NCBI GenBank assembly: GCA_025462735.1
Contig: JAOAPC010000024.1
Location: 496,001-560,000 of the forward strand
Length of the DNA: 64,000 bases
Source: Acidobacteriaceae bacterium
GTDB taxonomy: Bacteria; Acidobacteriota; Terriglobia; Terriglobales; Acidobacteriaceae
Reading direction: 5' to 3'
A model generated the notes under the pieces. It had not been told where the DNA came from. It did no database searches and saw only the letters and a program-made list of their open reading frames with translations. The first letter of the stretch is position 1, and each line of letters starts with the position of its first letter. Shown here one piece after another: positions 424 to 18,017 of this stretch. The translations under genes and the position numbers were made by a program.

Positions 424-2280
424 TTGCCTGTCCTAAACCGAACTTGGCTGCCTCGCTTCCGCCCTCGATCTTTGTGGCGGAAGTCGCCGTTTAGCCCCGA
501 AGAAAACCTGAGGACTGAGCGCTGGCTGGCGACAGCCAGAGTATTTCTTGCCATATGGGCACTGATTGCTCTGTGGCTTGATCCGGAGGAGGTCCGTTCG
601 CCTTGGGCGTACGCCTTGTTGGGTTTTTACATCGCACACGGCACGGCTGTCCTGGTTCTGCTGAGGTCGCCGCAGCAATCCACGTCCCCGCTTCGTTTGC
701 TGGTTCATTGCGTCGATGTGCTCTGGCCGGCTTTGATTTCTCCATATACCAGCGGGCAGAACAATCCCTTCTTCCTGTTTTTTGTTTTTGTGCTGGCTGC
801 TGCCGCCTACCGGTGGGGACTTTGGGAAACAGTGATGACCGCTGTCGCGTCGGTCTCCCTGCTCTGGTTGGAGAGTGTGTCGTTCGAAGAAGGGATTATG
901 CGCACGCTGAACGCATGGAGTACCCATCATCAGATGCCGGTCGTCCAAATCCGCATCCTTGGCATTGAACCAAGACAGCTGCTCATGGAATCGGTGTACT
1001 TGATCGTAATGGGACTTCTGCTGGGCTATTTGGCCGAGCGCCAGAAGAAGCTGAGCGCGGAAAAAGATATCGTCGCGAGGATGCTGCGACTGGTGCGAAT
1101 AGATGTTGGCTTAGCCGGCAGTCTTTCACATATCGTGAGGGAATTGGTCAGCCTCTACGGCGCCAGAGGAGCGCTGATCGTCACCCGTGAAAGCGGAAGT
1201 CACCGCGTACATGTTGGCGAACTTCAATTGGACAGCGCGTTTCCTGAATTGCGATGGGCTGATGCACGCCCTGGGGCTTCAGAGACATATTTGCGGGAGA
1301 GCATCGCGATAAGTTGGCTTGCAACCCGGGATGGTGAAACAGGTGAGGTCCGCCTCACCGGACTCGGTTCCTCAGGTTCGCCCGTGCGTGATGTCGATCA
1401 TGCCGTGGTTCGCAGTTTTGCCAATCTGCATTCTTTTAATTCGCTGGCTGCGTCTTTCTTTTCCTTCTCACACGAGCTTTCGGGACGAATCTTTCTGCTT
1501 GACCCTACTTTTCCATCTGGGACGGAAGAAGGACTTATCTTTCTACAGGACCTGGTCAGGCAGATCACGCCGGCACTCTACAATCTTTATCTTTTGCGGC
1601 GGCTGCGGAGCAGGGCCGGCGCTGCCGAGCGAGCGCGCTTGGTGCGCGAGCTTCACGATGGCGCGGTGCAGTCTTTGATCGGCGTGGAAATGCAAGTGGA
1701 CGTACTCCGCCGTCATCCACCTGCCGCGGACTCCATGACGGACGAACTGGAGCGCATTCAGGGATTGCTTCGGGAAGAGGTGTTAAATCTACGTGAGCTG
1801 ATGCAGGAGATGAAGTCCACGGAGATGGATGCCCGCCGGCTAGCTGGCTTCTTGCGCGATACTGTGCAAAGATTTCAGCGGGAAACCGGCATTGCTGCGC
1901 AATTTGTCATGGACGGAGACGAGGTCGTCCTTCCTCAATCGGTTTGCCGAGAATTGGCGCGTATTACGCAGGAGGCTCTGGTTAACGTGCGGAAGCACAG
2001 CGGCGCCAAACAGGTTCTAGTGCAGCTCTTGCGGGAAAATGCCGGATGGCAACTAACGGTTGAAGATGACGGCACAGGTTTTCCTTTTGTTGGGCGAATT
2101 ACACAGTCTGAACTCGATGCCACAGGAGGAGCGCCGGCGATTATCCGAGAACGCGTGCGGCTCATCCAGGGTGATCTCACGATAGAATCCAGGCCAGGCA
2201 AAGGCTCGCGAATTGAGGTGTACGTGCCGCAGATCCAAACCGTCGAGGCAAGCAGCGGCGCTCAGAACTTATTCACATGA
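424..2280 (+). CDS. Membrane sensor histidine kinase, NarL/DegS class (HisKA_3)
   Basis: This is a two-component sensor kinase. About six hydrophobic helices fill residues 35-205, a GAF-sized linker follows (about 215-385), then a HisKA_3 dimerisation domain with the H-box ELHDGAVQSL (predicted phospho-His about 411). The HATPase_c domain shows the N-box QEALVNVRKH (Asn about 521) and the G-box VEDDGTGFP. It ends with the usual GKGSRIEVYVP stretch. The start is uncertain: TTG at 424 is the only usual start near the open end of the frame, it has no clear ribosome site, and a second TTG near 472 would also keep all helices. The response regulator gene follows 83 bp downstream, so the two are probably a cognate pair. 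The signal sensed cannot be read from the sequence. Confidence 0.9.
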   Translation: MPVLNRTWLPRFRPRSLWRKSPFSPEENLRTERWLATARVFLAIWALIALWLDPEEVRSPWAYALLGFYIAHGTAVLVLLRSPQQSTSPLRLLVHCVDVLWPALISPYTSGQNNPFFLFFVFVLAAAAYRWGLWETVMTAVASVSLLWLESVSFEEGIMRTLNAWSTHHQMPVVQIRILGIEPRQLLMESVYLIVMGLLLGYLAERQKKLSAEKDIVARMLRLVRIDVGLAGSLSHIVRELVSLYGARGALIVTRESGSHRVHVGELQLDSAFPELRWADARPGASETYLRESIAISWLATRDGETGEVRLTGLGSSGSPVRDVDHAVVRSFANLHSFNSLAASFFSFSHELSGRIFLLDPTFPSGTEEGLIFLQDLVRQITPALYNLYLLRRLRSRAGAAERARLVRELHDGAVQSLIGVEMQVDVLRRHPPAADSMTDELERIQGLLREEVLNLRELMQEMKSTEMDARRLAGFLRDTVQRFQRETGIAAQFVMDGDEVVLPQSVCRELARITQEALVNVRKHSGAKQVLVQLLRENAGWQLTVEDDGTGFPFVGRITQSELDATGGAPAIIRERVRLIQGDLTIESRPGKGSRIEVYVPQIQTVEASSGAQNLFT

Positions 2281-2363
2281 CGCCCTTGATTTGTGTCCTG
2301 ATTTAGTAAGAACATAAGTTGTTTGTTGGGCCTCCGTCCGCGCTTTAAATCCGCAAACGCCAA

Positions 2364-3047
2364 ATGGATAATCGCAGGTTTCAGCCAGTGCGCATTTTGA
2401 TTGCCGATGACCATCCCATCTTTCGGGACGGATTGAAGCGTCTTCTCGAGTCAGAAGGCGAGTTCAAAGTCGTAGGCGAAGCTTGCGATGGAGTTGAGGC
2501 GGTCACGCTCGCTCGTCAACTGATCCCTGAAGTGCTGTTGCTCGATTTAGCCATGCCTCGTCGACGCGGGCTCGACGCGCTCCGGGACCTTGTTTCTGAT
2601 GCCAGAGCAGTTCGCGTGATCCTGCTGACGGCAGCTGCCGAGAAAGAGCAAATCGTCGAGGCCCTGCAGCTAGGCGCACGCGGAGTAGTGCTCAAAGATT
2701 CCGCCACCCAGATTTTGCTCAAGAGCATTCGCGCGGTAATGAACGGCGAGTATTGGGTCGGACGGGAGAGCGTTTCGAACCTGGTCCAATATCTAAGGAC
2801 TATGGTTGCTCCCGCTGAAACTTTCCCGCATAGAAATAGATATCGGCTTACGCCCCGCGAACTGGAAATCGTCGCTGCAGTAGTTGCGGGATTTGCAAAT
2901 AAAGAAATTGCTCAATACTTTAAAATTAGCGAAGACACAGTCAAACACCACCTCAGCAATATTTTCGACAAGATTGGAGTTTCGAGCCGGCTCGAGCTGG
3001 CGCTCTTCGCTGTAAACCAGTCGTTGCCTTTCAAGCCGATTGTGTAA
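2364..3047 (+). CDS. LuxR/NarL-family response regulator
   Basis: A 227-residue DNA-binding response regulator. The receiver domain (about 8-125) has the acidic pair D15/D16 and the phospho-acceptor D61 in LLLDLAMP, with a conserved Lys in VLKDSA. A LuxR-type helix-turn-helix follows at about 160-220, with LTPRELEIVAAVVAGFANKE and the recognition-helix region SEDTVKHHLSNIF. Domain order and length are standard for NarL/FixJ regulators. It sits just after a HisKA_3 kinase, the usual partner class. It converges with the dehydrogenase gene at 3065 with only 17 bp between stops. Its regulon is unknown; control of the neighbouring EPS genes is plausible but unproven. Confidence 0.93.
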   Translation: MDNRRFQPVRILIADDHPIFRDGLKRLLESEGEFKVVGEACDGVEAVTLARQLIPEVLLLDLAMPRRRGLDALRDLVSDARAVRVILLTAAAEKEQIVEALQLGARGVVLKDSATQILLKSIRAVMNGEYWVGRESVSNLVQYLRTMVAPAETFPHRNRYRLTPRELEIVAAVVAGFANKEIAQYFKISEDTVKHHLSNIFDKIGVSSRLELALFAVNQSLPFKPIV

Positions 3048-5231: not shown

Positions 5232-7550
5232 CTATGATTTCAACTGCGCCAACTGCTTCTTGACGTCGTCGGCACTTCTGTACTTCGGGTCGATCTTAAG
5301 AACGCGCTCTAAATGTTGTCTGGCGAGGGCGGGTTGCTCGGTCCGGGCGTATGCCAGGCCGAGGTGATAGTGATAAGTAGGGTTCTCCGCCTCTTTGTTC
5401 TTGGCCCCCAGCTTGATGGCTTCCTGAAACATGCCAATAGCAGACTCATACACGCCCTTTTGGTAAAAGGCCCACCCTAGGGTGTCCGCGACATTGGAGG
5501 ATTCGGGCAGATTGCGGCGAGCAGTTTGCGCCAACTGTAAAGCCATGTCCACATTATCATTGCGTTCCAGCAACACGTACGCCAAGTTGTTAGACGCTTG
5601 AGGATTGTCGGGCTTTAATTGCAATGCGGTCTGGTACGCCGATTTGGCCTTATCTAGATCGTGTTTACGCTCGTAGGCCACCCCCGTGAGAATGTAAAAA
5701 GCCGCCTCCTTCGGGTTGGCCGCGGTCGCCTCGGAGTATGTACCCAGCGCTTCATCCACCGCACCGGTCGTAAGCTGAGACTGGCCGAGTTTCACATATG
5801 CGTCCACGTTGGTTTTGTCTAGCTGTACCGCTTTTTTGAACGCTGTTTCTGCCTCTGGATAATTCTTCTTGCTCAACAGGACCGAGCCAAGCAGGTAGTA
5901 GAAACCGCTGTTGTTCGGAGAAGCCGCGATTTGACTATTGATTCGTGAAATCGCTTTGTCCGTTTGTTTCTGGGCAAGATAGACGTTCGCCAGACCGCGC
6001 AAGGCATCGACGGAGCCGGGCTCACGGCTGAGTGCCTGCTCAAACCACCTAGTTGCGTCTGGGAATTTCTGCTCTTGAGTGCTCAGATTGCCCATTTCCA
6101 TATAGCCAGCGGGCGATTGCGGGGAGACTTCAATGGCTTTGCGAGCATCCAGTTCGGCGGCCGGATACCGCTTGCGCGTCATCAGCGAAATGGATCGCAA
6201 CGCATAACCGTCTGGAGAAGCTGGCTGCAGTCGAATGATCTCGCTGGCATAGCGCTCGAGGCCTGGTATGTCTGATTTCTGCAGCGCAAGTCCTGCGAGT
6301 GCGCGATCGGCCTCTACCATGTTGGGCTGGAAGTGAACTGCCTGCTGCCATTCTGTTCCGGCGCGGTCTAACTCACCCCGCCGGTCCAAGGCTAGGCCCA
6401 GCTGATAATGTGCCACAGCCAACTCGGGATTCTTGGTGACGACGTCCTGCAAGGTTTGCACTGCTTCGTTGACTTGGTTTCGCCGCAGTTGGATCTCTCC
6501 GCGGAAGGTCAGTGCCTCTTCGTCTTTGGCCTTGGAACTGAGAAGAGACTCGTTGAGTTTGTCAGCTTCATCCAACCGGTTTTTCAGAATCAACAGCTGG
6601 ACGTAGTTCTTCGACACCTGCACGTCTTTCGGATGTTCCTGATGGAGCGATCCGTACTCAGCCGCCGCTTTGTCAAGATCGCCTTCGGCAAAGTAGTAGT
6701 CGCCGAGCATTCTATAAGCAACGGTGTTTTTGGGTAGATCTCGTTTGACTTCCCCGAGAAATTGTTCTGCTTCGGCCCTCTTACCTTGTGCCATGTATAG
6801 CTTGGCCAGCGACGCGCGCGCGTTGACATCTTTAGGGTCAGCCGCAATAATCGCCCGCACCTCCTGTTCGGCTTCCGCATAACGCCCGCGACCTTGGTAA
6901 AAGGCCGCCAGCGCCATACGCGGATTCTCGCCCTGGGCCTTCAGTTCGATGGCCTTCTTGTAATTTGCCTCCGCCAAATCAAATTGCCCGGTTTTAGTCT
7001 CAACCAGCGCGAGATTCAAATATGAGTCACCGTGATCCGGGGCCAGCGCGATCGCCTTCTGAAGTTCTGCCACCGCTTCAGGATACTTTTGCTGTGCGTT
7101 CAACAAATTGGCGACGGCAATGTGAGTGTCCGGATCATTTGGCTGCTTTTCGAGAAGCAGATCGGTGTGTTCCTTGGCGGTGGTCAGATCAGCGCGGTTC
7201 GAAGTTGAAGCGTAGTCCGCAGCCAGCATGTTTGCCATATCCGCGTGCGCCTTGTAGTTGTCCGGCTGCAACTCCAGAGTCCGCATGATTTCCAGATAGG
7301 CATGTTGCCAATCCTGCAGTTTGAGATAGCTTTGGGACAATTGATAGTGCGCCGCCGCGAAAGTACTATCGACTTGAGTGGCGTTCAGGAATTGAATGAC
7401 CGCTTCCCGATACTTCCCTTCAGCGTAATATCTTTGACCACTCTCAAAGTACTTCTGCTTTCGCACATTTGGATCGCGCGAACAGCCAGTCAACACTACC
7501 GCGAGTAAACCGAGCACCAGCGTTAAACGAAAATGGGAAGAACTTCTCAT
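5232..7550 (-). CDS. prsT: TPR-repeat lipoprotein, PEP-CTERM/EPS-associated (PrsT-like)
   Basis: A 772-residue lipoprotein. The signal peptide ends in a lipobox VVLTGC (Cys23), and the rest is an almost unbroken array of tetratricopeptide repeats up to the C-terminus, recognisable by recurring A-x-x-x-Y/L-G and P-A/G-N/D patterns. Length and architecture match the PEP-CTERM system TPR lipoprotein family, usually found beside exosortase genes. It lies downstream of EpsI and exosortase in the same direction after a 118-bp gap, so it may be in the same operon or have its own promoter. It probably acts in the periplasm as a scaffold for the assembly or export complex; the partner is not known. 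Confidence 0.88.
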   Translation of the reverse strand: MRSSSHFRLTLVLGLLAVVLTGCSRDPNVRKQKYFESGQRYYAEGKYREAVIQFLNATQVDSTFAAAHYQLSQSYLKLQDWQHAYLEIMRTLELQPDNYKAHADMANMLAADYASTSNRADLTTAKEHTDLLLEKQPNDPDTHIAVANLLNAQQKYPEAVAELQKAIALAPDHGDSYLNLALVETKTGQFDLAEANYKKAIELKAQGENPRMALAAFYQGRGRYAEAEQEVRAIIAADPKDVNARASLAKLYMAQGKRAEAEQFLGEVKRDLPKNTVAYRMLGDYYFAEGDLDKAAAEYGSLHQEHPKDVQVSKNYVQLLILKNRLDEADKLNESLLSSKAKDEEALTFRGEIQLRRNQVNEAVQTLQDVVTKNPELAVAHYQLGLALDRRGELDRAGTEWQQAVHFQPNMVEADRALAGLALQKSDIPGLERYASEIIRLQPASPDGYALRSISLMTRKRYPAAELDARKAIEVSPQSPAGYMEMGNLSTQEQKFPDATRWFEQALSREPGSVDALRGLANVYLAQKQTDKAISRINSQIAASPNNSGFYYLLGSVLLSKKNYPEAETAFKKAVQLDKTNVDAYVKLGQSQLTTGAVDEALGTYSEATAANPKEAAFYILTGVAYERKHDLDKAKSAYQTALQLKPDNPQASNNLAYVLLERNDNVDMALQLAQTARRNLPESSNVADTLGWAFYQKGVYESAIGMFQEAIKLGAKNKEAENPTYHYHLGLAYARTEQPALARQHLERVLKIDPKYRSADDVKKQLAQLKS

Positions 7551-7668: not shown

Positions 7669-8307
7669 TCAGCGTGGAACATAATTGTCAATCACGGGGA
7701 CGACGTTGTTCGCCAGAGTGAGCAAGCGCTGTTGAGCTGAATCGATACTCTCCCCTGGCAAAAATCTAGTTGTAAGCCGAATTAAAGATCCATCAGAGCG
7801 TCGCATGCGAATGGAATCAAGAACCAGATAATATTTTGCCCAATATTCGCTGGCCACAGCGCGGTCGTGCGCCCAATACCAGTACAAGACCAACTGCCGC
7901 TCCTGTCCCAGCGCGATCAAATACCTGTTGGCTTTGAACGGGGCATTGCCGTTCAGATTCAGAGTGATCCGATCCGATCGCAACGGAGCCCAACCGGCGC
8001 CAGGCAAGCAGTTTTTGGGCGAGTGAATCGTGTCTCCTGAGCGCTGACTGGGGAAATATGCGATGAACAGACCGACCGCCGGCGTGCTTGACCCGGACTG
8101 ATACTCGCGTGTCAGGAAATCACCCGGCCCCAAGACGTCCAGCACATCCTTGCTAAGGGGAACATCTGTCGAAAGCCATCCGTCAAATGTTCGCGGAAAC
8201 GACTGAAGGGGCTGGTGCGCGGGAATGATTTCCGCCGTGTTACGCGCCTGTAACAGCAATGCTGTTGCCGCCAGCAGCGCCACGACGGTGATGAAGCGCC
8301 AGTTCAT
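7669..8307 (-). CDS. epsI: Exosortase-associated protein EpsI (DUF3485)
   Basis: A 212-residue protein with one N-terminal membrane helix (about 5-20) and a periplasmic EpsI/DUF3485 domain. The family signature is clear: HSPKNCLPGAGW at about 95-106 (Cys100), followed by the conserved aromatic LVLYWYW and a YWAKYYLVLDSIR stretch. In many genomes EpsI is fused to or follows exosortase; here the start overlaps the exosortase stop by 4 bp (ATGA), which indicates translational coupling. The biochemical role of EpsI is not established, although it is nearly always found with exosortase in EPS loci. Confidence 0.92.
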   Translation of the reverse strand: MNWRFITVVALLAATALLLQARNTAEIIPAHQPLQSFPRTFDGWLSTDVPLSKDVLDVLGPGDFLTREYQSGSSTPAVGLFIAYFPSQRSGDTIHSPKNCLPGAGWAPLRSDRITLNLNGNAPFKANRYLIALGQERQLVLYWYWAHDRAVASEYWAKYYLVLDSIRMRRSDGSLIRLTTRFLPGESIDSAQQRLLTLANNVVPVIDNYVPR

Positions 8308-9200
8308 GCGGCACGCTCGCTATCGCGGCGGAAGAACGAAAACGCTTGATGCAGTGCAAACAGCATCAATAGTGAAACTACGAAAACCAACCATCCGGAG
8401 AAAAGATGGAAAAATCCTTCCGCTTTGTCCGGATCCCAATATTGGACGATCAAACCCGTTCCCACAATTCGCAACGCATTAGCTGCCACGGCAATGGGAA
8501 CGGAAGCCAAAGTCAGCGCGATTCGGATCCACGTTCGCCGCTCCATGAGGTAGCCATACATAATCGCCAGAGTCATCAGAGACATCAAAGACCGGATCCC
8601 GCTGCATGCCTGGGCCACCTCTAATGGCATAGCGGGTAAATTAATAATGTTGCCTTCCCGCAGTACTGGCACGCCGAAAGCCGGAAGCGTCCATGCCGCC
8701 AACTTCGAAGCCAATATCTGCAACGGTAACGTAATCTGGCTGAAAACGATCGCCGGAATTGGAACCATCAACACCAGGAAAAACAAAGGGAAGAGAACTG
8801 CACGGAATATGGCCCATCCGAGAAAAAAAATCACCAAGCCAGAAATCAAAACAATCAACGACACCCGCGAGAGGAAGAGTTCCGCGCCAAAGATCCCGAC
8901 GACTAACATTGCCAGAGACGCTAAGATAATGGGCAAACCCCAAGTAGAAGGTTTTCGGTGTATCTCCTGCAGGCGTGCCCGATTTTGCCAAAGTATGAAA
9001 GCCGAAAACACCGGAACGAAAAAGCCGTGCGAGAAGTTCGGGTCCGCCCACCACTGGCGAACCAATCGGAGAATGATTGGAACATAGAGCCAAGCCGCCA
9101 GAAGCAGGAGGGTCGCCGTGTACCAACTGATCAGTCTAGCTCTGGGACGGCTGGTCCTCATCGGCTCGGAGACTGAAACAGCCTGTGCCAAATCGCTCAT
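8304..9200 (-). CDS. xrt: Exosortase (integral membrane cysteine transpeptidase family)
   Basis: About 298 residues with roughly eight membrane helices. All exosortase hallmarks are visible: the N-terminal SHGFFVP, the catalytic-type Cys199 in QACSGIRSL, Arg244 in VAANALRIVGTG and His265 in EGFFHLFSGW. Exosortases process proteins with a PEP-CTERM-type tail and are tied to EPS production. The start is not certain: ATG 9200 (MSDLAQAV) fits the family best, ATG 9236 has a GGAG about 11 bases upstream, and a frame extending to 9377 encodes a Cys/Phe-rich leader that does not look like this family. EpsI follows with a 4-bp overlap. No protein with a convincing PEP-CTERM tail is encoded in this window. 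Confidence 0.93.
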   Translation of the reverse strand: MSDLAQAVSVSEPMRTSRPRARLISWYTATLLLLAAWLYVPIILRLVRQWWADPNFSHGFFVPVFSAFILWQNRARLQEIHRKPSTWGLPIILASLAMLVVGIFGAELFLSRVSLIVLISGLVIFFLGWAIFRAVLFPLFFLVLMVPIPAIVFSQITLPLQILASKLAAWTLPAFGVPVLREGNIINLPAMPLEVAQACSGIRSLMSLMTLAIMYGYLMERRTWIRIALTLASVPIAVAANALRIVGTGLIVQYWDPDKAEGFFHLFSGWLVFVVSLLMLFALHQAFSFFRRDSERAA

Positions 9201-9291
9201 CTTAAGCTTTAGCCGGGCAGGAATGCTCACAAACATATTGCAACCCTGCTCCGTTTGCAATTGCAGGGCCGACTCCTGCTCGATAAAATGC

Positions 9292-9312
9292 CTGTTTCCG
9301 CGGCTGAAACAG
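9292..9312. repeat. Short inverted repeat upstream of exosortase
   Basis: CTGTTTC, a 7-nt spacer and GAAACAG form a perfect 7-bp inverted repeat 56-112 bp upstream of the plausible exosortase starts. The right-hand 9-mer CTGAAACAG recurs at 9173-9181, just inside the gene. It could be an operator half-site arrangement or an untranslated-region hairpin; chance cannot be excluded. Confidence 0.3.
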
Positions 9313-9638
9313 CAACTGCCGAAGGGCGGGATACCGAAACTAAACCGGAGATTCAAGACCCCGCAGGGCGGGAACATATGAAATTACTGGGGTTATGAGT
9401 GCACCGCCGGTGCGCCGCGGCGGCAGCGGGGCGTCGTCACCGACTCCAATGATTAGGCTCGCTTTTGCCAAACGCTCGTGTGGCCATCTCTTGAGAGCAA
9501 AAAGAGACAATTACTTTCCACTGGGCCGACACGGTTTTATCAACATTCCGCAGTGTTCTACTACTCTGGTTATGAGCGGCTTAGGGCAAAATGGTTCTAG
9601 TTTGGTAGGCTGTTGATTTCTCTCCATATCGGAAAAAT

Positions 9639-9675
9639 GGGAAAAGATTTTCCCTTTTATCCGAATTGGTATAAC
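9639..9675 (+). promoter_or_regulatory. Candidate operator palindrome plus extended -10 promoter
   Basis: GGGAAAA-GA-TTTTCCC (9639-9654) is a perfect 7-bp palindrome flanked by A-run and T-run sequence that extends the symmetry with one mismatch. Thirteen bases further on, TGGTATAAC (9667-9675) fits an extended -10 element (TGn plus 5 of 6 to TATAAT). The -35 position for that -10 falls inside the palindrome, the geometry expected of a repressor site. Transcription from it would give a leader of about 200 nt before the regulator gene at 9885. Confidence 0.4.
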
Positions 9676-9884
9676 TTTACAGAGTTCCTTGCGGCTGGCC
9701 TCGACTCGTGGTAAGTCTCTGAAAACAGGGTTGCGGCACTTGCAAAATCGCGTTATCCAACCGAAAGCAGTCACTCTGGCCACAGCCGTGCTATTTAAGC
9801 GGAGTGGCACTAAGCTGCCGCTTCTTTCCTGCGCCTAGACGATGACCGGGCCAAGGAAAATTTTGAGGAGTTTAAAAAGCCAGT

Positions 9885-10793
9885 TTGCCAGCCTCTACCC
9901 AACCCTCCGGAGCCGACTTACCATTCCTTGACGCCGTGAGCCCTATCATGAAAGGGGTGGAGGCAGTCATTAAAGAACTGGCCCACAGCTCCGTCCCGGT
10001 TTTATTGATCGGAGAACGGGGATCTGGCAAGCGAACCATTGCCAAGAGGATTCATGCCACCTCTGTCAAACCTGGGGGCGAGTTTCGCGTTCTGATCTGT
10101 TCTGATCTGATTCCCACCACCATCATGGGAAGTCTGCAGTTGAACAGAGCCACCCTGTATCTCGACGAGATTGGCGACCTGAGTCCTGACTGCCAGCAAG
10201 GTTTGATGGATGCGCTCTCGAAGCAAAGCGGTGGAGCAGCAACCCACGTGCGTGTGGTCGGCGGCAGTTCCCGCGACCTTGAACAAGAAGTACGCGGCGG
10301 AGGTTTCAAGGAAGATTTGTATTATCGGCTGAGCGGAGTTTGCCTCCGCATTCCGCCGCTACGACAGCGCAAAGAAGACATTCCTGAGCTGATTAGCTTC
10401 TTTCTTGCCCGTTACGCGGAAGTTTTCCATCGCGCGGTGCCGCCACTGAGCTCAAGTACGAAGCAACTCTTCATGGACTACTCCTGGCCAGGAAACCTTA
10501 GAGAGCTCGAAGCTGCGGCGCGGGCGATCGTAGCTGTTGGAGACGAATCGGTTGCAATGGGCGGGTTACGGTCCATGCTGGTACGCTCCGACGGCGGAGC
10601 TAACGGCGGACGAGTGTCCCTGAAAGAAGTAGCGCGGGCAGCTTCCCGCGAAGCGGAGAAGGAGCTGATTTTGAAAGCGCTCACCCGCACCCGCTGGAAC
10701 CGGCGGCGCGCAGCCCAGGAATTGCAGATCAGCTATAAGGCCCTGCTCTATAAACTCAAGCAGATTGGTTACGAGGAATACGGGGCGTCATGA
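9885..10793 (+). CDS. AAA+ sigma-54-activator-like regulator with Fis-type HTH, lacking the GAFTGA loop
   Basis: About 302 residues with no receiver domain. The AAA+ core has Walker A GERGSGKR (about 43-50), Walker B LYLDEIGDL (about 91-99), the sensor-I region around VRVVGGSSRDLEQ, the FKEDLYYRLSGVCLRIPPLR block and the WPGNLRELE sensor-II region. A Fis-family helix-turn-helix closes the protein (NRRRAAQELQISYKALLYKL). Between VLICSD and LYLDEIG only about 17 residues remain, where sigma-54 activators have about 45 including GAFTGA; that loop is absent. The start is TTG 9885 with GAGGAG 14 bases upstream; GTG near 9936 or ATG near 9949 are alternatives. It sits directly upstream of the EPS export genes (40 bp), so it probably regulates this locus. 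Confidence 0.85.
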   Translation: MPASTQPSGADLPFLDAVSPIMKGVEAVIKELAHSSVPVLLIGERGSGKRTIAKRIHATSVKPGGEFRVLICSDLIPTTIMGSLQLNRATLYLDEIGDLSPDCQQGLMDALSKQSGGAATHVRVVGGSSRDLEQEVRGGGFKEDLYYRLSGVCLRIPPLRQRKEDIPELISFFLARYAEVFHRAVPPLSSSTKQLFMDYSWPGNLRELEAAARAIVAVGDESVAMGGLRSMLVRSDGGANGGRVSLKEVARAASREAEKELILKALTRTRWNRRRAAQELQISYKALLYKLKQIGYEEYGAS

Positions 10794-10833
10794 TTCGGCG
10801 CGAAATTGGAGAAGCCGTGAAACGGGAGAAACA

Positions 10834-11448
10834 ATGAGACGCATATTCACAATGTGGATTTTACTGGCCTTCGTGCTGGGAAGCTTACCGGCACTGGCAG
10901 GGCAGGATTCAAACCAATCCAAGGACCCGAAACCTACATCAGACCCCATGCCGGTGTCTCAGGCTGGCCCGTCCTATGTTATTGGTCCCGATGACACTCT
11001 GTTCATCTCAGTGTGGAAGGAACCAGATCTTACGGAAACTCTGCCGGTGCGGGCCGATGGAATGATTTCGTTGCCCCTTTTGAACGACGTTCAGGCGGCT
11101 GGATTGACCCCCATGCAGTTGGGTTCTTCTCTCTCGGAAAAATTAAAGAAGTACGTTGCCGACCCTCACGTCACGATTGTTGTAACTCAAATGAACAGTC
11201 AACGCGTATATGTGACCGGCGAAGTGCTGCACCCGGGCGCGATGAACCTGACCCCCAACATGACGGTGTTACAGGCATTAGCGACATCTGGGTTCACACA
11301 GTTTGCCAACACCAAAAGCATTTATGTTTTGCGCAACGAAAACGGGGCAGACAAGAAATTCCCGGTGAATTACAAGAAATTAATCAAGGGCGAAGCCGGC
11401 AACCAGAACATTGCGCTAAAGCCTGGAGACACAATCGTCGTTCCGTAA
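10834..11448 (+). CDS. Polysaccharide export outer-membrane protein (Wza/Poly_export family)
   Basis: A 204-residue export protein starting at ATG 10834 with GGGAG 7 bases upstream; the open frame begins earlier but overlaps the regulator gene. A signal peptide ends near LPALAG (about residue 22). The Poly_export domain follows (YVIGPDDTLFISVWKEPDLT, then DGMISLPLLNDVQAAGLTP), with an SLBB-like beta-grasp segment (RVYVTGEVLHPGAMNLTPNM) and the closing LKPGDTIVVP. It is shorter than E. coli Wza and corresponds to the short export proteins of exosortase EPS loci. It should form or contribute to the outer-membrane exit channel, with the barrel protein 6 bp downstream as a likely partner. Confidence 0.93.
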   Translation: MRRIFTMWILLAFVLGSLPALAGQDSNQSKDPKPTSDPMPVSQAGPSYVIGPDDTLFISVWKEPDLTETLPVRADGMISLPLLNDVQAAGLTPMQLGSSLSEKLKKYVADPHVTIVVTQMNSQRVYVTGEVLHPGAMNLTPNMTVLQALATSGFTQFANTKSIYVLRNENGADKKFPVNYKKLIKGEAGNQNIALKPGDTIVVP

Positions 11449-11454
11449 GCGGTT

Positions 11455-12999
11455 ATGAACAAACTAGCGATACAAATCGCATTCGCGCTGTTGTTGCTGG
11501 TGGCGCACGCCCATAGGACGTCGGCCCAGGCAAGCGGTGGTCAGAACACCAGCGGGGCAGCTCCAGCGGCGACAGGTCTGGATACCACGACGCAGATGAC
11601 CGAGAATCCACCGCTTTCGGGATTGGATGAACCCACGTTTGAGCCCGGATACGGGGCCCGCAGTTATCTGGCGCCCAAGGCGGAGGTTAGCGAGTCAGTA
11701 AACTCGAATGCTACTAATGAGTTTTCGAACACGAACATCACTACAACCAGCCGCGCTTTAGGTTCAGTCGAACTACAGAAGCTATGGAAGATGCATCCGC
11801 TCGCCGTTGATTATGTTGGAGGTGTGGACTGGTATAACGGGCCTAGAAGCCACGTTTATCAGGTGCATTCCCTTGCGGCGACGCAGCGCTTTCTGTGGCG
11901 AACCGGCCAGTTCGCATTGCGCGATTCCTTCAGTTACCTTCCCGAAGGCGCATTTGGTTTTGGCTCCTTTGGCGGTGCCGGCGGTGCCTCCGGAGGTGGA
12001 GGTTTCGGCGGCGGTGGACTTGGAGGAGGAGTTACAGGCGGCACTGGAGGGATTTTCACTAACGGCCAATTTGGATCGGTCGGAACCCGGCCGCGTATAA
12101 CCAACATGGCGATTGCAGACGTCACCCAGTACCTGAGTCCGCGTAGCTCAATGGTTCTTTCTGCAGGCTACGGCTTAACGCACTTCCTCAATAATCCTCA
12201 GACGTCATCGTGCGCATCGACGGCGGGCTGTTACTTCAACAGTCAGGAGACCATATTGCAGGCGGGCTACAACCGCCAGATTTCCCGACAAAACCAAGTT
12301 AGTGTGGTTTACGCGTTCGAAGAACTGCACTTTCCCACCTCGTCAGCTGGCAGCTTGAATGTGAATTTGTTGCAGTTGCTGTTTGGTCATCGCATATCAG
12401 GCAAGTTGGATTTCCTTATAGGCGGCGGACCGGAATGGGTGCACCGCAGCCAGTCCGAAGAGGAACTGGTCACACCCACCGGTACTTTTCCGCTCGGTCT
12501 GCCGTGCTTACATCCGACCGTTTTAACGCCGTGCGTTGTTGTTAAGAGTAGTTTTCTTGCCGGATCGGCTCGGGCCTCATTGAGGTATCACTGGTCAGCG
12601 CGCACAGAGTTGTTGTTGACGTATCTCAGATATATCAGCCCAGGTTCGGGCTTTTTCGGCGGAGCCAATACTAATGTGGTCCGCTTCGCGGCTACTCACA
12701 GCCTGGCGCGACGTTGGAACGTCACGGCGGACACCGGCTACTCGCGAAGTTCGCGTCTGTTGACGGCAACAGCAAGCATAGCCACCGGTAGTGCGAACTA
12801 CCACTATTGGTATGTGGGCGGAGGGGTTCATCGCCAGCTTGGCCGGTACTTTGGGGCTTTCGCGAGCTACCAATATAACGCCTTCGGTTTCGGCTCGAAT
12901 GGTTGCACTGGAACGTCATCAGTTTGTGGCCGAAGTTATGGCCGGAATGTCGGGTTGATTGGTCTGCATTGGACCCCGCACCCGATTCGGCTCGATTGA
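11455..12999 (+). CDS. Outer-membrane beta-barrel protein of the EPS export operon, with glycine-rich insert
   Basis: A 514-residue secreted protein beginning 6 bp after the export gene stop. A signal peptide ends near residue 24 (RTSAQA). The body consists of alternating polar/aromatic strands typical of an outer-membrane barrel, for example MVLSAGYGLTHFL, LDFLIGGGPEWVH and FGAFASYQYNAF, ending in a C-terminal hydrophobic strand. Its position matches the PEP-CTERM-associated outer-membrane protein family, but the similarity is by architecture and context. Residues 166-200 are nearly all Gly, with Phe, Ala and Ser, a low-complexity stretch that probably forms a flexible external or periplasmic loop. 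Function in export is inferred. Confidence 0.75.
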   Translation: MNKLAIQIAFALLLLVAHAHRTSAQASGGQNTSGAAPAATGLDTTTQMTENPPLSGLDEPTFEPGYGARSYLAPKAEVSESVNSNATNEFSNTNITTTSRALGSVELQKLWKMHPLAVDYVGGVDWYNGPRSHVYQVHSLAATQRFLWRTGQFALRDSFSYLPEGAFGFGSFGGAGGASGGGGFGGGGLGGGVTGGTGGIFTNGQFGSVGTRPRITNMAIADVTQYLSPRSSMVLSAGYGLTHFLNNPQTSSCASTAGCYFNSQETILQAGYNRQISRQNQVSVVYAFEELHFPTSSAGSLNVNLLQLLFGHRISGKLDFLIGGGPEWVHRSQSEEELVTPTGTFPLGLPCLHPTVLTPCVVVKSSFLAGSARASLRYHWSARTELLLTYLRYISPGSGFFGGANTNVVRFAATHSLARRWNVTADTGYSRSSRLLTATASIATGSANYHYWYVGGGVHRQLGRYFGAFASYQYNAFGFGSNGCTGTSSVCGRSYGRNVGLIGLHWTPHPIRLD

Positions 13000-13038: not shown

Positions 13039-14634
13039 ATGATTGAAAACCGTGTACTAACCATGGACGATTACGGCGCAATGCTGCGTCGCCGCCTGAA
13101 GACAATTCTCGTTCCCACGCTTCTGGCGCCCGTTGTCGGTTTTCTGATCTCGTATGCTTTTCCGCCCAAGTACACCTCGCAGTCGCTGGTTTTAGTGGAG
13201 CAACAAAAAGTCCCTCAAGGCTATGTGGCGCCGGTGGTTACGGAAGATCTTTCGCAACGCATCGCTACCTTGGAGCAGAAGGCCCTGGGCGCGGATCGTT
13301 TGCGGCTTCTTATCGACAAACTGAACCAGCAGGGTATATTGCACGGCGCGAATGCGGAGGACGTGATCGATCAGATACGCAGCGGAGTCACGATTGAACC
13401 GGTGCAGATGGTGATGGTCCCCAATCCCAGCGCCACCAAGGGAAGCGGATCCAGGCCCGGTTTCGGTCCGAACCCATCGAAATCGCAAGCGCAGGTTCCA
13501 GGCTTCAATTTGAACTACACAGCGAAGAACCCGCACGAGGCGCAGGCGATTTGCGCCGGTGTAACCGACATCATGCTCCAGGAAAATCTGAGAGACCGTG
13601 AGCAGGTGGCCCAAAATACCACCAATTTCCTCACCCGGCAGGTTGAGGATGCAAAGAGCAATCTGAACGACCTTGACGGCAAGCTTGCTGCTTTCAAGAG
13701 GCAGTATATGGGTCAGCTTCCCGGGGACGCAGACAGCAATTTGAAAATCCTGACGGCGATGAACTCGCAGCTGGACGCTACAACGCAGACTTTGAATCGC
13801 GCGCAGCAGGACAAAACCTACACCGAATCCTTGCTGGCCCAGCAGCTTGCGGCGTGGAAGTCTTCTCAGTCAGCCAGCAATCCGCAAACTCTGCAGCAGC
13901 AACTTGCACTGGCCCAAACGCAGTTGATTTCGTTACAGGAACGCTACACCGACGATTATCCAGATGTAGTGAAGACGAAGAAGCAGATTGCAGACCTGCA
14001 AAAGAAACTGAATGAGATTAATTCTGCTGCACCGAATTCCTCAGCGCCTTCAGGGAGCCAGGCCAATGCGACTGAACCGGCGGAGGTTCAGCAGCTCCGG
14101 ATGCAAGTCCATCAATATGAGCAGGTCATCGCGCAGTCAACGCGGGACGAAAAAAACCTCCAGAGCCAAATCAAGATTTTTCAGGGCAGGGTCTCGCTCA
14201 GCCCCGCGATCGAACAACAGTACAAACAATTGACCCGTGATTACGACACGGCGCAGAAATTTTATGACGACCTGCTCGCGAAGAGGACCCAATCAGAGAT
14301 GCAGACCGCGATGGAACGTGAGCAGCAAGGAGAGCAAATGCACCTACAAATTCCGGCCGGCCTGCCCGACTCTCCAAGTTTTCCAAACCGGCTCATGTTT
14401 GCAGGTGGTGGGCTGGGTGGCGGATTGGCGCTAGGAGTTTGTTTAGGCCTTCTGCTCGAACTGCGCGACAAGTCCCTGCGCAACGAAGGTGACGTCATTG
14501 CCGCGCTCGAGCTGCCGGTGCTCTCACAAGTGCCATGGGTGGGCGTGGAGACAGCCGGCCAGAATGCGAACGGCAAGCGCAGGCTCGGCTTCATGTCGAG
14601 TCCCGGGAACCGGGCAGGCAACGTAGAGGTTTAA
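13039..14634 (+). CDS. Chain-length determinant / Wzz-like inner-membrane protein (GumC/EpsF type)
   Basis: A 531-residue polysaccharide co-polymerase. A Wzz domain with the first membrane helix at about 21-40 is followed by a long periplasmic region rich in coiled-coil heptads (about 180-420, for example RQVEDAKSNLNDLDGKLAAFKR cut short by a helical break). The second helix is at about 450-470, preceded by the family-typical PSFPNR. It lacks a fused kinase domain; the tyrosine autokinase is a separate gene two positions downstream. It would set chain length and link polymerase to export channel. The start at ATG 13039 has GGAACA upstream; an internal ATG at 13063 is also possible. Confidence 0.92.
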   Translation: MIENRVLTMDDYGAMLRRRLKTILVPTLLAPVVGFLISYAFPPKYTSQSLVLVEQQKVPQGYVAPVVTEDLSQRIATLEQKALGADRLRLLIDKLNQQGILHGANAEDVIDQIRSGVTIEPVQMVMVPNPSATKGSGSRPGFGPNPSKSQAQVPGFNLNYTAKNPHEAQAICAGVTDIMLQENLRDREQVAQNTTNFLTRQVEDAKSNLNDLDGKLAAFKRQYMGQLPGDADSNLKILTAMNSQLDATTQTLNRAQQDKTYTESLLAQQLAAWKSSQSASNPQTLQQQLALAQTQLISLQERYTDDYPDVVKTKKQIADLQKKLNEINSAAPNSSAPSGSQANATEPAEVQQLRMQVHQYEQVIAQSTRDEKNLQSQIKIFQGRVSLSPAIEQQYKQLTRDYDTAQKFYDDLLAKRTQSEMQTAMEREQQGEQMHLQIPAGLPDSPSFPNRLMFAGGGLGGGLALGVCLGLLLELRDKSLRNEGDVIAALELPVLSQVPWVGVETAGQNANGKRRLGFMSSPGNRAGNVEV

Positions 14635-14640
14635 TCAGGA

Positions 14641-15594
14641 ATGTACAAAGAATTCTTTGGGTTAAGGGCGAACCCGTTCAATGTCAATCCCGATCCGCGT
14701 TATCTGTTTCTGACGCGGCACACGGAAGAAGCACTGGCATGCCTGACTTATGGCATCCAGAGCCGCAAAGGCTTCGTGCTGCTGACCGGTGAAGTCGGGA
14801 CTGGCAAGACCACGCTCATCAACAAGCTGCTCGAGTGGTTACGCGCGCAACAGGTTCCGACCGCTTTCATCTTCAATTCGCGAATGGACGTGCCACAGTT
14901 CCTAGACTACATGATGGCAGATTTCGGCCTGCCTTTGGAGACCAGCTCGAAAAGCCAGATTCTGATGCGTCTCTACAACTGGTTGCTCGAACGCTATCGC
15001 GCCGGCGAGACCGCGGTTCTGATTGTCGATGAGGCGCAAAATCTTCCCGACGAAGTGCTCGAAGAGATCCGCATGATGACCAATCTGGAGACGTTCACCG
15101 AGAAACTGCTGCAGATTGTTCTAGTGGGACAGACGGAATTAGAGCATCGGTTAAAACACCCGAATCTGCGCCAGTTGCGGCAGAGGCTGACACTCCGGGC
15201 AAAGACGCATCCGCTGACCGCAGAGGAAAGCCGGGCTTACATTCACCAGAGATTGCGGATCGCGGGATCAAACGGTCAGCAGATTTTTGAACCTGAGGCG
15301 CTGACTGCGATTCACCGTTATTCAGGTGGCATTCCGCGCGTGGTCAACTTACTCTGTGAACATTGCCTGGTTAGTGCATTCGTTGACCAGCACAAGACGG
15401 TCAATACTGATGTTGTAGACGCTGTGGCGCGGGACTTTGATCTCGAAAGCAGCCATAGCGTCGGGCCGGCCTCGCAGACGACGCCGGACAAGTTCGATTT
15501 GGTGGATGCGCTGAAGACAATTTCAAACCTCACGGAGCGCTTAAAAGAATCGCAACGCGACGCGAGCGAGATAAGCAAAGAAGGGAAACTATGA
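14641..15594 (+). CDS. ExeA-like AAA ATPase of exosortase EPS loci
   Basis: A 317-residue AAA ATPase with the family start MYKEFFGLRANPFNVNPDP. Walker A is GEVGTGKTT (50-58), Walker B VLIVDEAQNL, and the Arg-rich sensor LRQLRQRLTLR follows, then a helical lid with YSGGIPRVVNLLCE. This matches the general-secretion ATPase ExeA/GspA relatives found in PEP-CTERM EPS operons. It starts 6 bp after the chain-length gene, and its stop overlaps the tyrosine kinase start by 4 bp, so co-translation is likely. It is cytoplasmic and probably energises or organises the assembly complex; no direct function is established for the family. Confidence 0.9.
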   Translation: MYKEFFGLRANPFNVNPDPRYLFLTRHTEEALACLTYGIQSRKGFVLLTGEVGTGKTTLINKLLEWLRAQQVPTAFIFNSRMDVPQFLDYMMADFGLPLETSSKSQILMRLYNWLLERYRAGETAVLIVDEAQNLPDEVLEEIRMMTNLETFTEKLLQIVLVGQTELEHRLKHPNLRQLRQRLTLRAKTHPLTAEESRAYIHQRLRIAGSNGQQIFEPEALTAIHRYSGGIPRVVNLLCEHCLVSAFVDQHKTVNTDVVDAVARDFDLESSHSVGPASQTTPDKFDLVDALKTISNLTERLKESQRDASEISKEGKL

Positions 15595-16496
15595 GTCGAA
15601 TTCATGAAGCCTTGAAAAAAGCAGAGCAGGAAAGAGGGACCTCGGAGGTTGTGCAGCAAATGGATCCCGACCCGGCGGTTTTGGATGCATTGATCCATCC
15701 TGACGTAACGACTTCTGGCGTGCGGTCGCCCTCGGTCGCTGCTCCCGCCGCGGCCATGTCGGGCGATTCCTTGCTCGCCAGCATCCGCCAAACGGACTGG
15801 AGGCCCGACCCGAAGACCATGCTTTTTTTCACCGGCGAAGAGCACCTCTACGGCATGGAGGAGTTCCGCACCTTGCGCAGTCGCCTCTATCAAGCCCGCG
15901 AGAAACACCCCCTTTCGAAGCTGCTCATTACCAGTCCTCTGCCCAAGGAAGGGAAGTCTTTCGTGACGGCAAATTTGGGGCAGGTCCTGGTGCAGCAGCA
16001 TGGGAAACGTGCTCTGCTCGTAGACGCCGATTTACGAAATCCGCACCTGCATTCGGTGCTTGGCGCGGAACCTGGGCCGGGACTTTCCGATTACTTGCGC
16101 TCCGAAATAGACGAATTTTCAATCATCCAGCGTGGCCCCATGGAGAACCTTTTCCTCATACCGGCCGGCAGCAGGAACGAGAATCCGGCGGAGTTGGTTG
16201 GTAGCGGACGTATGAACACTTTGCTGACCCGCCTGCAGCCGTTGTTTGATTGGATCATTGTTGATTCTCCGCCCGCCGTTGCGGTTTCCGATGCTGGCCT
16301 TCTGGCGAAGTACTGCGATGGCGTGATCATGGTTGTGCGCTCCAACGCAACGCCTTTCGATATTGCCAAGCGAGCGCGGCAAGAGTTTGGCGACAACCTG
16401 GTCGGGGTGGTGTTGAACGGGATAGACACTTTGCCCGCTTATTCACAGTATTACTACAGTGCATACGGCAACCCGAATGGAAAGGGTGAAGCCTGA
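15591..16496 (+). CDS. Bacterial tyrosine autokinase (BY-kinase), EPS-associated
   Basis: A 301-residue cytoplasmic BY-kinase. The N-terminus MSRIHEALKKAEQERG is typical of stand-alone kinases of exosortase EPS loci. Walker A variant SPLPKEGKS is at 115-123, Walker A' ALLVDADLR at 141-149, and Walker B WIIVDSPP follows. The C-terminal tail ends SQYYYSAYG, a short tyrosine cluster that would be the autophosphorylation site. It overlaps the ATPase stop by 4 bp (ATGA). The Wzz-like protein at 13039 is the expected membrane activator. Such kinases control polymer length and export through cycles of autophosphorylation. Confidence 0.93.
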   Translation: MSRIHEALKKAEQERGTSEVVQQMDPDPAVLDALIHPDVTTSGVRSPSVAAPAAAMSGDSLLASIRQTDWRPDPKTMLFFTGEEHLYGMEEFRTLRSRLYQAREKHPLSKLLITSPLPKEGKSFVTANLGQVLVQQHGKRALLVDADLRNPHLHSVLGAEPGPGLSDYLRSEIDEFSIIQRGPMENLFLIPAGSRNENPAELVGSGRMNTLLTRLQPLFDWIIVDSPPAVAVSDAGLLAKYCDGVIMVVRSNATPFDIAKRARQEFGDNLVGVVLNGIDTLPAYSQYYYSAYGNPNGKGEA

Positions 16497-16628
16497 GATA
16501 TTTGCAAGAAATTTCAAGGCGATGGGTGAGTGTTTCTGGACCGCACCGCGCATCGGGCAACGTTTGAGTCACAGATAACGAGTGCAGCAGCTTCGCTGAA
16601 CGCTCAGCGATGGAGAAAACGGGTCGAG

Positions 16629-18017
16629 ATGGTTATCCGGTTGTTCAACGCGTATTTTCCCAGCCGCACTCTGCTGTTGGCGTTTTCTGAAGCTTGTGTA
16701 GTGGTATTGGCGTTCACGGTCTCATGCGTATTCTGGATGGGCAGAGACGCGGATATTTTCCTGAATTATGACGGTGGTTTCGCCAACATCGCTCTCATTA
16801 CAGTTGTCTTCGTTCTCTGCATGTATTACGGGGACCTCTACGACTCCCTCATTCTCACGAACCGCCGCGAAGTAATCATTCGACTGATCCAGGTTTCCGG
16901 AGCGGGAACCCTGGTAATGGCAATACTTTATTCCGCTTATCCCAAAACCCGGCTAGGAGCAAAAAACTACGCTCTGGGTTTAATCCTCTTGCTACTCCTG
17001 GTGTGGTTCTGGAGGGAGCTGTTCCTGTGGTTGTTTCGTTCCAAACACCTTCTGGAACGGGCGATTCTGCTGGGCGACGGCCCGCTAGCAAAAAAACTGG
17101 CCGCAGAGATTCTTAGCCGACCGGACTTGGGCCTCCAGCTCTTAGGTTACGTCAGCGCTTCGATGGCCCCAGCACGAAGTGACTTGCCGTATCTCGGTAC
17201 GCCAGATCATCTCTCGGATGTGGTGCGAACGCGCGGAATCCGCCATGTATTGGTTGCCATGTCGGACCAGCGTGGAAAGCTTCCGATGGACGAACTTCTG
17301 TCCATCAAATCGCAATATGCTCGCGTTCAGGATGGCGCCGAGATCTACGAGAAACTTACCGGAAAACTCCCCATCGAATCACTACGTTTGAGTTGGCTTT
17401 TGTTTTCTCCCGGATTCCACACCTCGCGGTGGCTCTCCGCATGGAAAACTGTGTTCTCTTTCTTTATCTCGCTATCTCTGTTGCTTATTTGTCTCCCGGT
17501 GTTGCTGCTAATTGCTCTTGCCATCCGCTTGGATTCGGCTGGTCCAGTCGTTTTCCGGCAAAAGCGAGTCGGTAAAGGGGGAAAGACTTTCACCCTATAC
17601 AAATTTCGTTCCATGTTCCACGGTCGGGATGAGGGCGGTAACCACCGTCCTGCTGAAGAGCAGGATGGCCGCATAACCAGACTGGGGCGGCTGCTTCGCC
17701 GCAGCCGGCTCGACGAGCTACCGCAGCTCTACAACATTTTGCGCGGGGACATGCATTTTGTGGGACCGAGGCCTTTCGTGCCGGATCAAGAGGAGGAACT
17801 GGTAAAGGCCATTCCTTTTTACAATCAACGCTGGAACGTCAAGCCCGGCGCTACGGGGTGGGCGCAGATCAATCGAGGCTACTGCGCAACTATCGACGAC
17901 AACGCTGATAAGTTGGCGTATGACTTGTTTTATATCAAGAATATGTCGATCTCGCTTGACCTATTGATCCTGTTTAAAACGTTAAAGATTTTGGTGCTGG
18001 GGCGTGGAGGGCGATGA
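16629..18017 (+). CDS. Polyprenyl-phosphate sugar-1-phosphate transferase (initiating glycosyltransferase)
   Basis: A 462-residue enzyme that would load the first sugar phosphate onto undecaprenyl phosphate. I chose ATG 16629 because family members begin at this point (MVIRLFNAYFPSRTLLL); an in-frame GTG at 16530 would add 33 atypical residues. Four to five helices (about 10-135) precede a Rossmann-like CoA-binding-type middle domain (ILLGDGPLAKKLAAEIL). After another helix (about 275-300) comes the catalytic Bac_transf domain with KRVGKGGKTFTLYKFRSM, RSRLDELPQLYNILRGDM and FVGPRPFV. It is followed, with a 4-bp overlap, by a GT2. The acceptor sugar cannot be predicted. Confidence 0.93.
   Translation: MVIRLFNAYFPSRTLLLAFSEACVVVLAFTVSCVFWMGRDADIFLNYDGGFANIALITVVFVLCMYYGDLYDSLILTNRREVIIRLIQVSGAGTLVMAILYSAYPKTRLGAKNYALGLILLLLLVWFWRELFLWLFRSKHLLERAILLGDGPLAKKLAAEILSRPDLGLQLLGYVSASMAPARSDLPYLGTPDHLSDVVRTRGIRHVLVAMSDQRGKLPMDELLSIKSQYARVQDGAEIYEKLTGKLPIESLRLSWLLFSPGFHTSRWLSAWKTVFSFFISLSLLLICLPVLLLIALAIRLDSAGPVVFRQKRVGKGGKTFTLYKFRSMFHGRDEGGNHRPAEEQDGRITRLGRLLRRSRLDELPQLYNILRGDMHFVGPRPFVPDQEEELVKAIPFYNQRWNVKPGATGWAQINRGYCATIDDNADKLAYDLFYIKNMSISLDLLILFKTLKILVLGRGGR

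Follow-up and report, generated by a model that had tools for sequence, protein, structure and literature searches.

A sigma-54 activator homologue that lacks the GAFTGA loop heads a conserved, probably sigma-54-driven EPS operon in Acidobacteriota

The first gene of an EPS export and assembly operon in the Acidobacteriaceae bacterium analysed here (positions 9885–10793, + strand) encodes a GAFTGA-less, receiver-less AAA+/Fis-HTH regulator of 302 amino acids, whose sequence predicts that it cannot contact sigma-54 through L1. Positions are those of the window, i.e., the whole analysed stretch of 64,000 nucleotides, which belongs to a genome of 4.36 Mb whose named relatives are Acidobacteriota/Terriglobia, including a Candidatus Sulfotelmatobacter. 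The operon that this gene heads carries a conserved sigma-54-type promoter and a palindromic candidate enhancer, and the loop-less protein is probably a built-in modulator of its own operon, perhaps a brake.

The initial annotation described the protein as a sigma-54 activator look-alike that lacks the GAFTGA loop, with a Fis-type HTH and without a receiver domain, and alignment, orthologues and structural modeling all agree with this description. A TTG codon is the likeliest start and is also found in a relative with 84% identity (L061). In Pfam, the protein matches Sigma54_activ_2 (84.9 bits), Sigma54_activat (78.9), AAA_lid_14 (62), and HTH_8 (41.4); the first of these scores lies above the gathering score of 25 bits for PF14532, a sequence family with no function attached, the model of which is 30 positions shorter than that of PF00158. 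No receiver domain was detected by Pfam, and about 18 residues precede the AAA+ domain. The distance from VLICSD to the Walker B strand, estimated in the annotation at about 17 residues, was counted as 16, as compared with 37 in a canonical, GAFTGA-containing paralogue from the same genome (L007), and the L2 region is likewise short. In an AlphaFold2 model (pLDDT 86.9), the helix at residues 77–83 joins the strand at residues 90–94 directly, with no L1 hairpin, and the fold is that of a bEBP AAA+ domain (NtrC1, Z 24.9; VpsR, Z 22.3). The AAA+ fold, the P-loop, and the R-finger are present, and the glutamate-switch Asn and sensor-I Asn are lost.

A search of 200 genomes of the family gave orthologues in 45, and one of 250 genomes of the class gave them in 53; GAFTGA is absent from all 64 aligned Terriglobia (Acidobacteriota) orthologues, namely the window protein and 63 others. 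These proteins form a monophyletic clade (support 100/100), and the branch that would decide whether the clade is closer to one or the other of two canonical activators, EBP7 and EBP11, has a support of 86/40. A sequencing or assembly error, or a frameshift, that conceals a loop is thereby ruled out, because every aligned orthologue lacks it and homologues with an intact GAFTGA at this position, which would have pointed to such an error, number 0 of 64.

The pattern of conservation within the clade is uneven. Mean pairwise identity reaches 0.84 in the HTH and 0.78 in the R-finger segment but only 0.48 in the AAA core. All 64 proteins retain the P-loop Lys and 58 retain the R-finger Arg, whereas the Walker-B Asp is kept in just 30 (lost in 34), the glutamate-switch Asn in three, and the sensor-I Asn in one. 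At the sequence level, this pattern indicates selection for DNA binding, and perhaps for nucleotide-dependent assembly, rather than for remodelling sigma-54 through cycles of ATP hydrolysis. ATP hydrolysis is probably not essential, because the Walker-B Asp is lost in half of the proteins and the switch and sensor-I Asn residues are gone from almost all of them. With its P-loop Lys and R-finger retained, the protein may act as an ATP-switched repressor, as suggested earlier, but the losses argue against essential hydrolysis. The erosion of the ATPase residues might also be taken to mean that the gene is a decaying, functionless relic of an activator; this is highly improbable, however, given that all 64 ORFs are intact, that dN/dS is 0.05–0.11 over the gene as a whole (ten close pairs), that the HTH is nearly invariant, and that synteny is kept across several families. 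Pseudogene status is ruled out by the same purifying selection. As a separate observation, Cys153 of the regulator (SGVCLR) and the surrounding GVCLR are kept in 60 of the 64 loop-less proteins, and none of the canonical EBPs compared has them.

The gene that follows the regulator is wza in 62 of the 64 loci, and the stretches of the other two contain no wza match. In the window, this gene encodes a Wza/EpsY-type polysaccharide export protein (10834–11448, +; PF02563 and SLBB) and is followed on the same strand by a conserved EPS-operon protein, recognized by synteny and probably of the outer-membrane beta-barrel type (11455–12999), a polysaccharide chain-length determinant (13039–14634; TIGR03007, 195 bits), an XrtA/PEP-CTERM-associated ATPase (14641–15594; TIGR03015, 302 bits), a BY-type tyrosine autokinase (15591–16496; TIGR03018/TIGR01007), and an EpsB-type polyprenyl glycosylphosphotransferase (16530–18017; TIGR03013, 396 bits, above the cut-off). 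The same downstream order (wza, then ChnLen, ATPase, TyrK, and EpsB) is seen in the orthologous loci. On the far side of the regulator, genes on the opposite strand encode an exosortase of the EpsH family (8304–9236, −; PF09721, 264 bits; TIGR02602, 212 bits), the start of which is uncertain between 9236 and 9377, an EpsI-type exosortase-associated protein (7669–8307, −; PF11984, 188 bits; TIGR02914, 134 bits), and a PrsT TPR lipoprotein (5232–7550, −; TIGR02917, 413 bits, above the cut-off). This divergent EpsI/exosortase/PrsT arrangement recurs wherever the orthologous stretches extend far enough. Beyond these genes, at 424–3047, lie a HisKA_3 histidine kinase and a LuxR-type response regulator, which may also regulate the EPS locus.

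A −24/−12 promoter, which the initial annotation had not been able to see, emerged when the orthologous upstream regions were scored position by position. A TGGC-N8-TGC core located 74–155 bp before the start codon is present in 53 of the 61 distinct orthologous loci counted, as compared with 1.4 expected from shuffles, and no good sigma-54 element was seen in the remaining eight; a locus devoid of a sigma-54 promoter is thus ruled out. The window copy, TGGCCACAGCCGTGCT (9777–9792, +), scores poorly by itself (9.1 bits, a value reached by 6% of shuffles) and ranks among the weaker ones of the loci, so that its assignment rests on the position and core conserved across loci. Upstream of the −24 element by 139 bp lies a palindrome, TGGGAAAAGATTTTCCCT (9638–9655), which is a candidate enhancer (UAS) on account of its conserved spacing. 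The form TGGGAAA-N4-TTTCCCA is found in 36 of the 61 distinct loci (0.21 expected), at a fixed spacing of 112–159 bp upstream of the −24 element in loci of family f1, and is weaker in genomes of families f5 and f7. Only one place in the 4.36-Mb genome, the window locus itself, matches a pattern that joins the palindrome core to the promoter core at this spacing, and the reversed control gave no match. A weaker copy of the palindrome with five mismatches, AGAGACAATTACTTTCCA (9503–9520), may be present about 135 bp further upstream, and similar second copies occur at −270 to −280 in five other loci (L053, L055, L056, L059, and L064). On the opposite strand, a tentative sigma-54-like element, CGGCCCTGCAATTGCA (9256–9271, −), precedes the divergent exosortase gene; similar elements recur 28–67 nt before the start codon in L061, L053, L064, and L070, and none was seen in the other loci. 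The divergon may therefore be controlled by sigma-54 on both sides. The genome also contains rpoN. It is thus very probable, judging from the conservation of these elements, that the regulator and the EPS operon are transcribed by sigma-54 from an enhancer. If the operon itself is driven by sigma-54, the regulator is made from a sigma-54 operon and is not a sign that the locus has left sigma-54.

This consideration bears on the fate that has been documented for other bEBPs without GAFTGA. In TyrR, DhaR, and HupR (PMC3162934), as in NtrC of R. capsulatus and Caulobacter (PMC10274813), L1 is deleted or changed and contact with sigma-54 is lost, as in the regulator; these proteins, like VpsR (PMC3162934), act on sigma-70 promoters. 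VpsR, the master regulator of EPS in Vibrio cholerae, is likewise a bEBP homologue with an AAA+ domain and a Fis-HTH and no functional GAFTGA, and it matches the regulator in both sequence (E 2e-20) and fold (7v2b; Z 22.3). By analogy, the regulator could act, as an activator or a repressor, on EPS promoters that depend on sigma-70 or another sigma factor, being switched by a nucleotide or second messenger without hydrolysis; retention of the P-loop with loss of the hydrolysis residues would fit ATP binding of this kind. We nevertheless regard this, the principal alternative to the model favoured below, as unlikely. The conserved promoter of the operon is of the sigma-54 type, and a crude scan of 9150–10900 found no sigma-70-like site. 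The palindrome lies at about −150, a distance typical of an enhancer and not the position of a class I/II activator site or an operator. VpsR, which works at sigma-70 promoters with c-di-GMP, and NtrC have a receiver or receiver-like N-terminal sensor domain, which the regulator lacks. Furthermore, these papers (PMC3162934, PMC10274813) describe none of TyrR, DhaR, HupR, or NtrC as heading a sigma-54 operon with an enhancer motif common to canonical paralogues.

Such paralogues are present in the same genome. The recognition helix of the loop-less proteins, ISYKALLYK[LI], is matched among the canonical EBPs of the genome only by those of EBP7 (L007, ISYRALLYKI), a GAFTGA-containing protein without a receiver, and EBP11 (L011, ISYKALLYKI), a receiver-EBP; a degenerate EBP (L014) has a related helix. 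A recognition helix in common suggests a binding site in common. The EBP7 gene is itself preceded by the palindrome, both in this genome (C1:70874–70891) and in L034, L064, L072, and L047; in L064 and L072 the palindrome is followed by a good sigma-54 element. In the window genome, the kinase/receiver-EBP pair lies on another contig (C1); sister genomes carry it close to the EPS locus. In genomes with the loop-less gene, the receiver-EBP is sometimes located within about 8–12 kb of it. The receiver-EBP was found in 38 of the 45 genomes positive for the loop-less gene and in 42 of the 155 others (Fisher p 6e-12, a value that ignores shared ancestry); in the seven positive genomes where it fell below the threshold, completeness was below 85% in four and 91–100% in three. 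In the window genome, EBP7, a PilZ protein, a histidine kinase, and the receiver-EBP form one block (L078, G000:C1:61000–80900, at 8626–12912), members of which adjoin PrsT in the EPS locus of the sister genomes G003 and G021. The PilZ protein hints at a possible link to c-di-GMP.

The model that we favour is that the regulator is a pseudo-activator, a bEBP homologue that lost L1 and much of its hydrolysis machinery while keeping the Fis-type domain that reads DNA, the P-loop, and the arginine-finger interface, and that is encoded by the first gene of the EPS export/assembly operon, behind the sigma-54 promoter at 9777–9792 and the palindromic enhancer at 9638–9655. EBP7 and EBP11, the latter being the receiver-EBP of the kinase pair on contig C1, would bind this enhancer and thereby activate the promoter. 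Once made from the operon, the loop-less protein would bind the same palindrome, either by itself or by contributing subunits to the ring of the activator, and would lower or tune activation by sigma-54, resulting in negative feedback on EPS production. We infer the protein that binds the palindrome, the mixed assembly, and the damping sign of the effect from features that are all visible in the sequences: the loss of the loop, its conservation and synteny, the promoter and palindrome, the common recognition helix, and the palindrome before EBP7. That the product of a sigma-54 operon damps activation in this way, by occupying the enhancer of the activators or co-assembling on it, appears to us an evenly balanced proposition.

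Loss of the loop has occurred more than once among the activators linked to wza. In family f2, a relative of EBP7 lies upstream of wza; it is intact in L039, L040, L041, L044, L048, and L051, and also in L170, which resembles L039 in this respect, and its loop is eroded in L035–L038, which are nested within the EBP7 clade. A second EPS locus in the window genome (L167, G000:C19:27000–46000) has a receiver-EBP, E14 (8540–10162), before wza, in which the loop reads GYGGRLANRG and the P-loop Lys is replaced by Arg (GAGR). GAFTGA is lost in 19 of the 20 members of the E14 clade (orthologues L147–L166); the exception, L156, branches among the losers, and at least two losses must therefore have occurred in this clade unless the loop was regained. 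Taken together, the sequences indicate at least three, and probably four, independent losses of the loop in the wza-linked EBPs of these bacteria. Elsewhere in the genome, a receiver EBP with no link to wza (L012, G000:C13:223132–223629) has GSIPSV in place of GAFTGA, and an EBP gene about 25 kb before the window (G000:C12:470516–471003; L013/L016) is split between two frames with an internal TAG, representing either a frameshifted gene or an assembly error.

These losses also bear on the sign of the proposed modulation. The loop-less protein might instead be a positive helper that co-assembles with EBP7 or EBP11, assists ring nucleation or DNA looping, and stimulates sigma-54 transcription in a positive feedback. 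The invariant P-loop Lys and the well-conserved R-finger segment point to preserved contacts between subunits, and an EBP7 that is intact and presumably activates itself occupies the same genomic position in family f2 (L039, L170). Even so, a protein without L1 and the glutamate-switch Asn should remodel sigma-54 less effectively, not more, and repeated independent loss of the loop agrees with selection for losing the activator function, which makes the helper role distinctly improbable. It is also tempting to speculate, more tentatively than for the damping role itself, that activators at the head of wza operons in Acidobacteriota recurrently lose the loop and pass from self-activator to dedicated inhibitor, poisoning the canonical ring on the common enhancer.

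Control of PEP-CTERM genes by sigma-54 has been described in Proteobacteria, where it involves PrsK/PrsR and a cis-motif that is not common to other phyla (PMC1569441, 2006), and one PEP-CTERM gene depends on RpoN (PMC9850573). The present system resembles that of PrsR in the sigma-54-linked regulation of exosortase and EPS genes, and PrsT and the kinase/receiver-EBP pair have relatives here. PrsR (TIGR02915), however, contains a receiver, and its cut-off is 502.6 bits, as compared with scores of 364 for the receiver-EBP on C1 and 138.2 for the regulator; membership of the regulator in PrsR is thus ruled out, in keeping with the view, already taken in the initial annotation, that it is unlike PrsR-type activators. 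Likewise, the proteobacterial motif, with its TTTACA end and 63-nt spacer (PMC1569441), is unlike the palindrome of the present locus, with its 121-bp spacer. No report of a loop-less paralogue acting as an inhibitor was found in the literature collection searched. GAFTGA-less bEBPs and the proteobacterial sigma-54 control of PEP-CTERM genes are already known; what is new is the loop-less clade, the position of its gene at the head of a conserved sigma-54/enhancer operon, the palindrome common to it and canonical paralogues, and the repeated loss of the loop.

The known activator homologues without GAFTGA are single cases and have been treated as having moved to sigma-70. Here, by contrast, a whole clade, along with further independent losses, stays in sigma-54 operons, its DNA reading nearly unchanged and its ATPase decaying. 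The clade thus opens a direct question, namely whether a loop-less subunit can serve as a built-in brake on sigma-54 transcription. For the control of EPS and exosortase genes in Acidobacteriota, a specific promoter/enhancer pair can now be proposed, together with a candidate kinase and candidate activators. If activators at the head of wza operons do repeatedly become inhibitors, they would constitute a recurrent module, the "pseudo-bEBP," comparable to the regulatory pseudokinases.
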